From a virus: 23,800 nt of DNA. Positions 12,926 through 19,382 of the stretch are shown piece after piece (position 1 is the stretch's first letter; each line of letters starts with the position of its first letter). The translations under genes and the position numbers were made by a program. The notes below the pieces were generated by a model. The model ran no database searches, had not been told where the DNA came from, and saw only the letters and a program-made list of their open reading frames with translations. The stretch is taken from positions 1 to 23,800 of the IMG/VR virus record IMGVR_UViG_3300006929_000121. The stretch is one strand, 5' to 3'.

Positions 12926-15087
12926 TAAACGCTTCTTTGTCTGTTAATTCCTGTGTTTCTATTACTTAAAAATATATCATTTCCTTTTATAACTCCCTCA
13001 ACTATTACATTCTGAGATCCCCCAAAGTTTTTCAATTGATCTAAAGGAATAACCGCTTCAGGACCTGCCTCACCAATTAAAGCCATTTGAGGTCCCATAA
13101 CTACGCCTCCATCTGCCATTGCTGGAATGTTCATTATTTTCCCTAAGTTCCCCAATATGTTTTTTGATGAAAAAGCAGCCTTTCCGATTCCCCGCAAACT
13201 TGCGGGCATGATAGCTGAGATTAAAGTCATAACAGCTAGTTGAACCATTAAACTTGTTATTGCTTTTTTTATGTTTTTAATAAACACATCAAAGAATTTT
13301 TCTTGAGAATTTAAAGCACTATCCAATGAACTTGTTAAAACATCTCCAAACATCATCCATCCAGCTTTTGCTATTTGTTGTGATTCTGTTAATTTTAAAG
13401 TGAAAAAATCTACATCCTGCATAACAGCACCCACAACCCTATTAGCATCTGAATATTCTTTGATTTTTTCAATTAAAGGATCTAATGACCTTGAATACTT
13501 TTCTGTTTCTTCTTTTGTGTTTTTAGTATTTGTTGAAAGATTTGTTGTTGTATGGTCTAATTTTTTAAACTCCTCATTTGCATCTTCTGTTTCAACCATT
13601 AACTTTGTGAGCATATTTGTTAAAGCTTCCGCCTCTTTGTTTAAATTGCCTATTCCCTCAACACCAGTTTTTGTTGTAAGCGTTTTTAATAACATATCCA
13701 ATGGAGTGAACCCCTCTGTTAATCCAAAATCTTCCAGAAAAGAAGTTCCAATATTTTGCTGTGATTCTAAAATTTCTTTTTGAATTTCAGTTAATCTACC
13801 TTTCAAAGCTTCAACTTGACTTGCTTTTAATAAACTATTTATTAAGTTCTCATTTGCTTGTTTTAATGTTTGTGTGCTTAACGTCGCCTCATCTAATTCA
13901 TCATAATAGCCTGGATAGGTCTTTTTTAAATCATCTAGAAGTTTCTTTTTGTGTTTTAAACTTGTGTTTTCGTCTTCTAATAAACTAGTTGAAACTTTAA
14001 TTTTTGTTAAATCCTCTGAAATGTTTTGTCTAGCTTGTGCGTTTACTTTTTCAATTTGTTTTTGTATACTAAATTGATTGTTTAGACGATTTATTACTTT
14101 TTCTAAAATTTTAACAAAAGCAATTGCTCCCACAATAGCCAAAAGATAGGGATTTGTTGCAGCTAATCTTGCAAACAAAGGAATCAATGAAGAAATTCCA
14201 ATTGATATTTTTCCTATAATTATTAAAATAGGGCCAATAGCTGCAATAAGAAGTGCCCAATTTACAATGCTTTTTTTAGTAGATGCGCTTAAGCTATTAA
14301 ATTTATCTACTAATTCTCTAAAAAAACGAATTGCTTTTTGTGCCATTGGGATTAAATGTTCTCCTAAAGAAATAGCAGCGTCCGTCAATTCTGCTTTTGC
14401 AATTCTCATTTGATTGGCAAAAGTGTGGGATGTCCTTTCAAAATCTCCAACAGCTTTGGAACTTTGTTTTAATGCAAGTTGATATGTAAGTTGTGCTTTT
14501 GCTACTCGGTCTAATTCTTTAAATACAAGTCCATGTTGCGCTGCAAACTCCTTTAAATCCGCTTCAGTAATTGCTATACCTAAAGATTTGATTGATTCTC
14601 TTTCTCCTAACAAAGCCTTAGTTAAAGCAGCAGAAGCACCCTCTGCTCCTCCACTAAAGTTTGTAAAGGAAGCTAAATCAACAGCCAATTCATTCACTTG
14701 TTTGGATAAATCAAGAGCAGATTGTTCTGTAAATCCAAATCCAACTAATAAATCTCCAGTATCAGATAATAATTTTTTGGCAGCTAAATCAGAAAGTCCA
14801 AAAGATTCAGAAAAAACTTTTGCTGTTTGTTCGGCCTCTGCTTGAATGCTAGAGAATACAGTTTTAAACTTTGAATCTGTTTGTTCAAAATCAGAAGCTA
14901 GTTTTAAAGAAGCCGCTCCCAGCCCTACAATTGGTAGTGTTAATCCAGTAGTTAAATTCTGCCCAGTTCTTTGAACATTCTTCCCAAACTTTTTGAGATT
15001 CTTTTGAGCTTTTTTCATTGCTCGGTCAAACCCTTTTAGGTCTGCACCAAATTTGAAATTTAAAAAACCAATTGCTTTACTTGCCAT
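12925..15087 (-). CDS. tape measure protein
   Basis: 720 residues. The N-terminus (GADLKGFDRAMKKAQKNLKK, then GLTLPIVGLGAASLKLA) is typical of phage tape measure proteins. It has hydrophobic segments at about 270-330 (NWALLIAAIGPILIIIG; NPYLLAIVGAIAFVKIL), a long helical region, and near the C-terminus the family motif ALIGEAGPEAVIPLDQL. It sets tail length and passes through the host membrane at injection. 720 residues suggests a tail of roughly 100 nm if the usual rule of about 0.15 nm per residue holds. It overlaps the GT stop by 11 nt. Confidence 0.93.
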   Translation of the reverse strand: MASKAIGFLNFKFGADLKGFDRAMKKAQKNLKKFGKNVQRTGQNLTTGLTLPIVGLGAASLKLASDFEQTDSKFKTVFSSIQAEAEQTAKVFSESFGLSDLAAKKLLSDTGDLLVGFGFTEQSALDLSKQVNELAVDLASFTNFSGGAEGASAALTKALLGERESIKSLGIAITEADLKEFAAQHGLVFKELDRVAKAQLTYQLALKQSSKAVGDFERTSHTFANQMRIAKAELTDAAISLGEHLIPMAQKAIRFFRELVDKFNSLSASTKKSIVNWALLIAAIGPILIIIGKISIGISSLIPLFARLAATNPYLLAIVGAIAFVKILEKVINRLNNQFSIQKQIEKVNAQARQNISEDLTKIKVSTSLLEDENTSLKHKKKLLDDLKKTYPGYYDELDEATLSTQTLKQANENLINSLLKASQVEALKGRLTEIQKEILESQQNIGTSFLEDFGLTEGFTPLDMLLKTLTTKTGVEGIGNLNKEAEALTNMLTKLMVETEDANEEFKKLDHTTTNLSTNTKNTKEETEKYSRSLDPLIEKIKEYSDANRVVGAVMQDVDFFTLKLTESQQIAKAGWMMFGDVLTSSLDSALNSQEKFFDVFIKNIKKAITSLMVQLAVMTLISAIMPASLRGIGKAAFSSKNILGNLGKIMNIPAMADGGVVMGPQMALIGEAGPEAVIPLDQLKNFGGSQNVIVEGVIKGNDIFLSNRNTGINRQRSV

Positions 15088-15735
15088 GTTCTATTCTTTT
15101 TTTATATAATTCTGCCTTACTTTTTAAATCTTCAAAATCTATTTTCGTTGTGTCTTTCTCCCATTCAAATTTACCTAAATCCTGAGGCTTTAAACTCTTA
15201 CCTTTTGAAAGCTGGATGTTTAATAATAAACAAGTGCTCCATCTCGTTCTTTCCCAATCACTTCTTTGCCTCATATTCTCCAACTCATAAAACCCATCAA
15301 CCTTGTTCCAAAACTCTCTTGGTAACATGTCATAAAAATCATCAACATTCATTCCCAATTGTCCGAATGCTATCCTCTCAAGTTGTGGCCAAGTTAGCTC
15401 TTCTTTGCTCTCTTGGCCTTTGGCTTTTTTTCTTCATCTCCCACCATTGCTCTTCCTAATATTTCAAAAGCTTTTTCCATACAGTCCATATGTCCGTCAA
15501 ACATATCTGTAACGTCATCTATTGAATAATGGAAAGGTTGTTTTGCAGCTCTGTAACCATCTTCTAATCCACAATAAATCAAACTAAACGCATCATTGAA
15601 AGTCATTTTTCCCTCTGATAATTTATTTAAGTCATTCATTGTTGCTCCAGTCATTACGCTATATTTTCTTAATGCATTAAAACCAAACCTGATTGGCATC
15701 TTATGTTCTCCAATCTCTAATATTTCATATTTCAT
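15077..15735 (-). CDS. tail assembly chaperone GT, made by -1 frameshift
   Basis: A fusion of 219 residues. The first 104 come from the G frame, up to the AAG of A AAA AAG at 15424-15430. The next 115 are read in the -1 frame beginning GCC at 15422-15424 and ending at 15077. The -1 frame is open from the shift site and reads LTWPQLERIAFGQLGMNVDD, then PREFWNKVDGFYELEN, which is the conserved T-domain of phage tail chaperones. An ATG inside (15352-15350) or TTG (15358) would skip the conserved LTWPQLERIAFG part, so separate translation is unlikely. GT binds the tape measure, whose gene overlaps the end by 11 nt. Confidence 0.88.
15387..15430 (-). promoter_or_regulatory. programmed -1 ribosomal frameshift site
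   Basis: The heptamer A AAA AAG (15424-15430) is in the correct phase near the end of the G gene, nine codons before its stop. Five nt later GGCCAAG (15412-15418) can pair with CTTGGCC (15387-15393): a perfect 7-bp stem with an 18-nt loop. Heptamer, spacer and stem match known stimulators such as dnaX of E. coli, which uses the same heptamer. Confidence 0.88.
15394..15735 (-). CDS. tail assembly chaperone G
   Basis: 113 residues: MKYEILEIGEHKMPIRFGFN, FSLIYCGLEDGYRAAK, and a basic tail GDEEKKPKAKRAKKS. Length, place between the tail tube and tape measure genes, and the frameshift into GT identify it as a lambda G analogue. It coats the tape measure during tail assembly and is not found in the finished virion. 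Its start follows the structured gap 15736-15824. The zero-frame stop lies nine codons after the slippery site, as in other G/GT pairs. Confidence 0.85.
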   Translation of the reverse strand: MKYEILEIGEHKMPIRFGFNALRKYSVMTGATMNDLNKLSEGKMTFNDAFSLIYCGLEDGYRAAKQPFHYSIDDVTDMFDGHMDCMEKAFEILGRAMVGDEEKKPKAKRAKKS

Positions 15736-15750
15736 TTCTAAGTGTTTTTG

Positions 15751-15809
15751 TCTTTTCTGATAATAAAGAAACCTACCCCCCTACTCAGAAAAGAAAACAG
15801 GGAGGCAGG
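15751..15809 (-). terminator. terminator-like hairpin in pseudoknot topology
   Basis: On the minus strand CCTGCCTCCC (15800-15809) pairs with GGGGGGTAGG (15772-15781): ten pairs, two of them G-U, followed by TTTCTTTATTA. This looks like a rho-independent terminator 15 nt after the tail tube stop. Its loop contains TCTTTTCTGA (15785-15794), perfectly complementary to TCAGAAAAGA (15751-15760) downstream of the T-rich stretch. The two stems interlock as an H-type pseudoknot with loops of 5, 3 and 11 nt, or exclude each other. The GC-rich patch stands out in AT-rich surroundings. Confidence 0.7.
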
Positions 15810-15824
15810 ATCTTAAAATTGTTA

Positions 15825-16274
15825 TTAAGCAATAGTTTGTGTTAAAGCTCCACTTCCTTGAAAAGATACTGAAAATGTTGCTGTATCTTCTAAAGGTGCT
15901 GTTAAACTTGCAGAGGTTACCCATACACTACCAGTATATTTTGTATCTCCAGATGTTGAACCAGTTGTTCCAAAAGTTACATCTAATTTTGCTCTTGTAT
16001 GAATCATATCTGTAAATAACTCGCTTAATGTTAATCCTCCTATTGCTCCCCCTGATGCATCTAAGTAAGCATATAAAGCGTCGCAAGAAATATCCCAAGA
16101 TCTTAATCCTTCCATGTGCTCTTCCCAAGCCCCGCTTTCCTTATTTGTGGTCCCTCTGGTAGAGTGATTTATGTTTATTGTTGCGTTTGTTGCGTAAGCG
16201 ATTAAAGTCGCAGAACCCCCTGAAGGAGTTATATATACACTTAAATCAGTTCCGTTTAATTGTCCATTTGCCAT
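15825..16274 (-). CDS. major tail tube protein
   Basis: 149 residues beginning MANGQLNGTDLSVYI and rich in G, S, T and beta-strand patterns. It has the AYATNATININHSTRGTTNK and ESGAWEEHMEGLRSW stretches typical of the TP901-1-like tail tube family (phage major tail protein 2 type). Many copies polymerise into the tail tube. It is preceded by an A-rich leader (AAAATAAAAAAAA before ATG), as expected for a highly expressed Bacteroidota phage gene, and followed by a terminator-like structure. It lies between the two small unknowns and the chaperones. Confidence 0.9.
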   Translation of the reverse strand: MANGQLNGTDLSVYITPSGGSATLIAYATNATININHSTRGTTNKESGAWEEHMEGLRSWDISCDALYAYLDASGGAIGGLTLSELFTDMIHTRAKLDVTFGTTGSTSGDTKYTGSVWVTSASLTAPLEDTATFSVSFQGSGALTQTIA

Positions 16275-16768: not shown

Positions 16769-17854
16769 TTATTCTGGAACATCAGCTTCAAAGTCTGTTG
16801 ATGTCATGTTAGTCATTGTTCCATTATTGTTTCCAGTTTCATCTACAATTGTTGGATAAGTTGCAATAGGATTTCCTACTATACCTCCATCTCCCATTTT
16901 CCAGTAACCTTTCATATTTGCAACAGGTTGAGGATTAAATGGTAATCCATCATTGTAAAGATTTGAAACCTCTGTTCCACTAAGTGTTTTATTGAATAAT
17001 ACTACTTCATCAATATTCCCTTTCCAAAAATTCCCTCCCTCAGCATTGTTTCCAATTGCTGCTGCTGAAAAAGTTCCAGTAAATGTTCCACTTATTGCAT
17101 TAGCTTGTTTTAAAGTTCCGTCTAAATAAATAGAAAGATTCCCACTTGAATCCCAAGTTGATGAAACGTGATGCCATAAACCATCTGCCTCAACTACATC
17201 AGTTAAAACTGCCAATGTTGCTGTTCCTCCAGCTTTATAAACAGTTCTCAACTCATTACTTGAAGCATGATAAAAAACTCTTATGTTATTATTACTGTCC
17301 TCAAAAAGACGTATTATATCAACACTAGATGCGGTTGTTTCCAATTTAAACCATGCAGAAATTGAACCTGTATTTTTTACAGAACTCATTCCAGTAACTC
17401 CCAAAGAAACAAAATCATCAACCCCATCAAAATGAGTTGAATAAATATTATTAAATGAATTTATGATTCTGATATTAAAGTTTAAAGATTTTCTATAAAT
17501 ACCATCACTACCACTCATATCGTCAAATACGTCATCATAACCATCAAAATCAATTGCTTGAATATTTACAGCGTTATAAACTCCATTAACTCTGTCAAGT
17601 GCTGTTCTTATATAGTTTGCAAGTTTGGAAGCTTCTGAGTATGTTTTACAATAAGCTGAAACCATTATATTTGCAGTATCTAATAAAGCAACAGAATCTT
17701 TTTGTCCCTCTGGTTCATCAGATGAAACATCATAGACAATAAAAGGAAATGCTGAGGTTTGCTTCATTACATTTGGAGCAATCCTTGTTCCTACCATTGA
17801 TGATACTGCTATGTTATCATTTAAAATTTTATATATTGCTTTTCCTATATCCAT
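16769..17854 (-). CDS. tail terminator (DUF3168-like) fused to LamG domain
   Basis: 361 residues in two parts. About 1-132 (MDIGKAIYKILNDNIAVSSM, GTRIAPNVMKQTSAFPFIVY, ANIMVSAYCKTYSEASKLAN) fits the DUF3168/tail-completion family, which caps the tail and joins it to the neck. From about 138 (YSTHFDGVDDFVSLG) to the end lies a concanavalin/LamG-like domain with GSISAWFKL, WHHVSSTWD, GNLSIYLDGT and GNIDEVVLFNKTLSGTEVSN. Such domains usually bind sugars. Tail terminators are normally about 130 residues, so the added domain would project from the neck of the virion. It lies 1 nt after the gp10-like gene, which supports the first assignment. Confidence 0.8.
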   Translation of the reverse strand: MDIGKAIYKILNDNIAVSSMVGTRIAPNVMKQTSAFPFIVYDVSSDEPEGQKDSVALLDTANIMVSAYCKTYSEASKLANYIRTALDRVNGVYNAVNIQAIDFDGYDDVFDDMSGSDGIYRKSLNFNIRIINSFNNIYSTHFDGVDDFVSLGVTGMSSVKNTGSISAWFKLETTASSVDIIRLFEDSNNNIRVFYHASSNELRTVYKAGGTATLAVLTDVVEADGLWHHVSSTWDSSGNLSIYLDGTLKQANAISGTFTGTFSAAAIGNNAEGGNFWKGNIDEVVLFNKTLSGTEVSNLYNDGLPFNPQPVANMKGYWKMGDGGIVGNPIATYPTIVDETGNNNGTMTNMTSTDFEADVPE

Positions 17855-19314: not shown

Positions 19315-19328
19315 TTTTTTTATTTTTT

Positions 19329-19364
19329 AAAAAAAAAGGACTGGCCATTTAAAACCAGCCCTTT
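19329..19364 (-). terminator. rho-independent terminator after major capsid gene
   Basis: On the minus strand AAAGGGCTGG (19355-19364) and CCAGTCCTTT (19335-19344) pair over ten positions, one a G-U, with a 10-nt loop, followed directly by six more T (19329-19334). It lies about 18 nt after the capsid stop. It would lower expression of the neck and tail genes relative to capsid. Confidence 0.93.
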
Positions 19365-19382
19365 CTTAATTATATAATCAAC

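Follow-up and report, generated by a model that had tools for sequence, protein, structure and literature searches.

Phages need many tail-tube subunits and few tail assembly chaperones from one late transcript, and to our knowledge the setting of this ratio beyond the G/GT frameshift has been little studied. In the IncI-alpha, IncB and IncL/M systems, a hairpin loop on a polycistronic RNA base-pairs with leader sequence of repZ or repA, the gene that follows, and the resulting structure is reported to act as an activator opposed by an antisense RNA. In phages T4, T2 and RB69, a pseudoknot in the gene 32 leader, 67 nt upstream, nucleates gp32 binding while the A+U-rich stretch of the ribosome binding site is unstructured, and a 2010 review suggested that T4 gene 32 might be the sole instance among viruses of translational autoregulation that uses a pseudoknot (PMC3014915). 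The rpsO leader of E. coli and mycobacteria also carries a pseudoknot, the mutational disruption of which abolished S15-mediated repression (PMC8470358).

The locus described here was found in a 23,800-nt stretch of DNA from an uncultured virus (IMG/VR record IMGVR_UViG_3300006929_000121, positions 1 to 23,800), the whole of which is referred to as the window. An original prediction, made from this DNA by itself, had placed an H-type pseudoknot in the minus-strand RNA between a tail tube gene and a chaperone gene. As in gene 32 and rpsO, the structure is located within, or adjacent to, the region where translation of the gene it would control is initiated.

The tail tube/chaperone junction in the window

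The predicted gene context was borne out by profile matches on both sides of the element, and the features are as follows, in the order in which they are transcribed.

15825-16274, minus strand: tail tube (major tail) protein gene (PF06199 Phage_tail_2, E 2e-14; phrog_1407 major tail protein, E 7e-25)
15799-15809, minus strand: stem 1, 5' arm, CCTGCCTCCCT / CCUGCCUCCCU, of a covarying 11-bp helix
15783-15798, minus strand: hairpin loop of 16 nt, GUUUUCUUUUCUGAGU, near-invariant in clade 1, the window's type
15794-15785, minus strand: stem 2, 5' arm (distal pairing), UCUUUUCUGA, inside the stem 1 loop
15791-15783, minus strand: 5' arm of the alternative proximal pairing, inside the stem 1 loop
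15772-15782, minus strand: stem 1, 3' arm, AGGGGGGTAGG / AGGGGGGUAGG, pairing with 15809-15799
15761-15771, minus strand: U-rich linker, UUUCUUUAUUA, directly 3' of stem 1, a terminator-like U-tract in clade 1 only
15751-15760, minus strand: stem 2, 3' arm, which is the distal leader site, UCAGAAAAGA, 16-25 nt 5' of the chaperone ATG
15736-15743, minus strand: proximal leader site, ACUUAGAA, adjoining the chaperone ATG; its complement is the 3' half of the loop, and the pairing runs into the A of AUG
15394-15735, minus strand: gene for the G-like tail assembly chaperone (match to phrog_2115, tail protein, at E 2.5e-9), its N terminus conserved in all lineages
15077-15358, minus strand: second chaperone ORF (T of G/GT; phrog_16333), in the -1 frame

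Direct reading of the minus strand confirmed that both complementarities reported earlier are present at this junction. The tail tube stop codon occupies 15827-15825, stem 1 begins 15 nt further on, and the chaperone start codon is the ATG at 15735-15733. Stem 2 was present exactly as claimed, with ten perfect Watson-Crick pairs between 15794-15785 and 15760-15751. Stem 1 had been given as ten pairs including two G-U; the two G-U pairs stand, and the count is 11, a closing U-A pair having been overlooked. The proximal site at 15743-15736, which touches the chaperone ATG, had also been missed. With an 11-bp stem 1, the loops of the predicted pseudoknot are 4, 2 and 11 nt long, which is plausible, and the last of these, which would cross stem 1, is the U-rich linker itself.

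The two chaperone ORFs are likely to be joined by a -1 frameshift as in classical G/GT tail chaperones, judging from the sequence: a slippery A_AAA_AAG lies in frame at 15430-15424 on the minus strand, shortly before the first ORF ends, and the -1 frame enters the second. A frameshift-stimulating role for the pseudoknot was ruled out, as the slippery site lies ~320 nt downstream of the element and not a few nt upstream of it. Genes of the window have A-rich leaders and no Shine-Dalgarno sequences, and such starts on minus-strand genes across the window suggest a Bacteroidota host. Further upstream, a tail-terminator protein (16769-17854, minus strand; PF11367, phrog_347) is fused to a C-terminal LamG/concanavalin-like domain (PF13385), which is unusual at such a position. 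A canonical terminator, GGGCTGG...CCAGTCC followed by nine T, was observed directly 3' of the major capsid gene (19315-19382, minus strand); beyond it lies an A-rich leader belonging to the gene that comes next.

The window by itself gives modest support, and the case depends on relatives. The 89-nt intergenic region had a fold z of -2.7 with the pseudoknot left out of the fold, the loop-to-leader pairing gave p 0.018 against dinucleotide shuffles, and a terminator scan of the window picked up the stem 1 hairpin as one of 3 hits against 1.5 expected, which is not significant alone.

Both helices are selected in the sense RNA

Searches of IMG/VR with the chaperone and tail-tube proteins each returned at least 50 loci, and the intergenic regions of these loci comprised 43 distinct sequences, the window included. 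A scan with the motif pattern yielded 79 contigs; every motif-bearing locus encodes the chaperone and/or the tube, and both are encoded except at four loci where the element lies close to a contig end. The element is conserved across a large, widespread group of uncultured marine phages.

Clade 1 was represented by 33 distinct close relatives, in which stem 1 was paired in 363 of 363 cells, with two-sided changes at nine of its 11 pairs, and stem 2 in 96% of cells, the differences being mostly G-U or at the end pair. The covariation score for both stems together was 0.447, against 0.150 for shuffles and 0.06-0.09 for slid partners. The stem 1 cells included 83 G-U and 0 A-C, indicating that the sense RNA is the folding strand and excluding a DNA-level hairpin or an antisense-strand RNA. 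Within this clade there was hardly any variation in the loop core UUUUCUUUUCUG or in the leader CAGAAAAGA, what differences there were being G-U or at the helix end, except in one relative, L505, which has lost the distal site. A second complementarity was found in clade 1, between the last nucleotides before the ATG, ACUUAGAAAA, and the loop, UUUUCUGAGU; most members had an energy near -10 kcal/mol for this pairing and some a weaker one, and this proximal site is the one that L505 retains. The distal and proximal pairings use overlapping loop nucleotides and are therefore mutually exclusive, only one forming at a time.

More distant relatives of the chaperone carried unrelated hairpins at the tube/chaperone junction, and here again the loops were complementary to their own leaders. 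In clade 2, the loop sequence UUUUGUUUAGU pairs with ACUAAACAAAA, immediately 5' of the ATG. Within this clade the pairing is rewritten to UUUGUUAGGU with ACCUAACAAA in L371 and L383 (L388 is listed with these two among the re-paired lineages) and to UUUUGUGGGU with ACUCACAAA in L424, while in L459 an extra loop C is matched by an extra leader G. Elsewhere the partners are CCUUUCGUG with CACGAAAGG in L427, L464 and L465, UUCGGUGAG with CUUACUGAA in L409, UCGGUAGAU with AUUUAUCGA in L504, UUUUUCAGGU with ACUUGAAAAA in the L410 group, and GUUUGUUU with AAACAAAC in the L440 group, for which single-sequence support is weak (p 0.01-0.26). The clade 2 pair counts (94.6% paired; nine pairs with two-sided changes) back stem 1, an outer helix and stem 2, and stem 2 alone had three pairs with two-sided changes, matched by 0 of 500 shuffles for both cells and score. 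The last three stem 2 pairs in clade 2 overlap stem 1, so that the full-length forms cannot coexist there.

The outer helix, which lies 5' of stem 1 in sequences of the L195/L308 type, contains a symmetric UGAU/UGAU internal loop with possible tandem G-A pairs; this feature is present in one subgroup of clade 2 and altered in the other.

An upstream ORF resembling the tail tube was present in every lineage where it could be read, the distance from the tube stop codon to the loop was 23-35 nt in all lineages measured, and in the lineages other than clade 1 the gap between the 3' arm of stem 2 and the chaperone ATG is 0-4 nt. A chaperone tree, built from few columns, joined clade 1 with clades 2 and 4-6 (94/90). 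In GC-richer relatives (L199-L227, L469 and similar) this junction is occupied by a tight terminator with a small loop in place of the pseudoknot, indicating that the loop-leader pairing is a property of certain lineages.

The specificity of the pairing was examined by exchanging loops and leaders among 21 representatives. The mean energy was -12.1 kcal/mol for a loop with its own leader and -5.9 kcal/mol for swapped partners, and 0 of 20,000 permutations fell below -9.2 kcal/mol; the representatives and loop boundaries were hand-picked after the pairing had been seen, which inflates the absolute energies, while swapping preserves composition and includes near relatives, which works against a difference between own and swapped partners. 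In AT-rich contigs, 55 of 62 hairpin-bearing chaperone leaders paired at or below -9 kcal/mol, compared with five of 96 other genes, and two of those five proved to be chaperones missed by their label, leaving ~3/94. Single-sequence p values for the loop-leader pairing ranged from 0.002 to 0.26.

Taken together, these data show that both helices are selected in the sense RNA at the tube/chaperone junction, and that the pairing has been kept while the sequence was rewritten in several lineages. The arrangement fits an H-type pseudoknot, in which a hairpin loop pairs with sequence outside it, stem 1 being supported by covariation within clade 1 and stem 2 by re-pairing within clade 2 and between lineages. 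The compensatory changes that the original prediction had asked for in both stems were found.

Searches for described relatives of the element were negative. Covariance models of Rfam release 15 gave no family match at the gathering threshold and chance-level hits only at a permissive threshold. There was no nucleotide match among 50,697 cultured-phage records, nor any match there for the two distant-lineage chaperones that were tried, and the tail tube matched proteins in those records at up to ~34% identity only. The element was absent from the 26-nt junction of Cellulophaga phage phi39:1, from the 41-nt gap of Streptococcus phage P738 and from Paenibacillus phage Lilo, where the genes abut. 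A chaperone scan of bacterial genomes found nothing; one Lachnospiraceae contig matched the motif pattern, and this was taken as chance as no GC-rich stem was present. A literature search for pseudoknots together with tail chaperones returned frameshift work.

Proposed function and rival readings

What all pseudoknot lineages share is pairing of the loop with the translation-initiation region of the chaperone. In Flavobacterium johnsoniae, A-rich leaders promote initiation and structure in the initiation region reduces it (PMC6847099). If the same holds here, as expected for Bacteroidota-type mRNAs, the loop-leader pairing should mask the start. The interpretation we favour, with a probability of about 0.62, is of a leader pseudoknot acting in cis, by which the chaperone initiation region is masked; the structure is well supported, and the function is inferred. 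A hairpin placed ~15 nt after the tail-tube stop codon of a late phage mRNA would present a large U-rich loop, and this loop would pair with the A-rich leader of the tail assembly chaperone gene that follows. The pairing would hide the open A-rich stretch 5' of the ATG that serves as the initiation region in mRNAs lacking a Shine-Dalgarno sequence, and so would lower or gate chaperone synthesis relative to that of the tail tube from one shared transcript. The element thus probably keeps chaperone output low relative to tail tubes. A counterpoint to masking is that the stronger site in the window's clade lies 16-25 nt 5' of the ATG, which puts it at the border of the initiation footprint.

A more elaborate version, put forward tentatively, is an RNA switch for the stoichiometry of tail morphogenesis. 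In such a switch, the loop would choose among leader sites, of which there are two in the window's clade, and would open on a signal of chaperone need, be it a tail protein, a translating ribosome or RNA processing. This would make the element a regulator of structural genes conserved in structure and rewritten in sequence between lineages.

It could be that the hairpin is an intrinsic terminator or attenuator only, in which case stem 1 and the U-tract would end most transcripts after the tail tube and the loop-leader complementarity would be secondary. A GC-rich hairpin with an immediate U-tract is indeed present in the window and in most of clade 1 (an 11-12 bp stem; of the four members measured, three have T at 6-8 of the 8 positions that come after it), there is a canonical terminator after the capsid gene of the same phage, and plain small-loop terminators occupy the tube/chaperone junction in the GC-richer relatives and in gut phage MT835917. 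The earlier description of stem 1 as a terminator is therefore plausible for the window's clade. It does not carry over to the other pseudoknot lineages, which have 1-4 T in 8, nor to L505 (4/8 T), and most pseudoknot lineages have no U-tract yet keep the loop-leader pairing. As the U-tract is confined to clade 1, termination cannot be the shared function. In addition, the leader arm falls outside any terminated RNA, a terminator has no need for a constant 16-nt loop, and the swap result would be left unexplained. Termination as the sole role is accordingly judged unlikely. Termination in clade 1 is likely an added function, and there the hairpin and U-tract would probably end part of the transcripts, giving a second layer of stoichiometry control. 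A role for stem 2 as an anti-terminator, also suggested at the outset, is unlikely, because its 3' arm starts 11 nt past the hairpin and is transcribed after the polymerase clears the U-tract.

An opposite effect was also considered, namely that the pseudoknot works like that of IncI-alpha repZ and promotes chaperone translation, or couples it to that of the tail tube. The topology matches that design, with a hairpin loop bound to leader sequence of the gene that follows, and the window hairpin, ~15 nt past the tube stop, lies near the edge of a terminating ribosome, with the stop-to-loop distance held within its narrow range across lineages. On the other hand, the pairing reaches the ATG in most lineages, where it should block 30S binding and not help it, and we identified no second helix that would lie over the ATG and be inhibitory. 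We regard activation as doubtful.

Action in trans, with terminated tail-tube transcripts exposing their loop and acting in an antisense-like way on the chaperone leaders of readthrough transcripts, is very unlikely: a terminated clade 1 RNA would carry a free loop complementary to two leader sites, yet the pairing is kept in lineages without a U-tract, and a cis partner at 10-20 nt should win over one in trans. That a U-rich loop and an A-rich leader are complementary by chance, as the compositional bias of both and the individual p values might suggest, is scarcely credible against the swap control, the background-gene control and the two-sided changes, unless the swap result is an artefact of the choice of representatives.

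Comparison with known systems

We know of no relation by sequence or gene context between the element and the gene 32, rpsO or repZ pseudoknots, and the likenesses are those of design. As with T4 gene 32, the pseudoknot is in a phage mRNA, in the leader of the controlled gene, and the initiation region is A+U-rich; the differences are that the second helix uses the leader next to the ATG, that the gene is of another class, and that no regulator protein is known here. The rpsO pseudoknot is likewise located in an initiation region or leader, but it serves S15 in autoregulating its own gene, does not follow a tail tube gene, includes coding sequence in its E. coli form and is unrelated to the element in sequence. 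The contrast with repZ and repA is that here the initiation region is covered by the pairing and that we know of no antisense RNA. The clade 1 form, a hairpin with a U-tract, resembles the intrinsic terminators that follow major capsid and tail genes, and occupies the junction at which GC-richer relatives have plain ones; it is set apart from these by a large conserved loop paired with the leader of the next gene, and most of the lineages have no U-tract. The candidate RNAs of Weinberg and Breaker, such as manA and wcaG, are also conserved marine-phage RNAs found by covariation (PMC2864571), whereas none is placed near tail genes in the main text of that report, where the word "tail" is absent, and the present element matches no Rfam family.

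If start masking is indeed kept across these sequence-unrelated versions, the element would constitute a new RNA family and would add a phage case of translational control by a pseudoknot to that of T4 gene 32. It would point to a way of regulating mRNAs without Shine-Dalgarno sequences, by covering an A-rich leader with a U-rich loop, and the natural compensatory variants make masking directly testable in a reporter. Among leader pseudoknots it is a new RNA element, distinguished by a new position and by conservation of pairing rather than of sequence.
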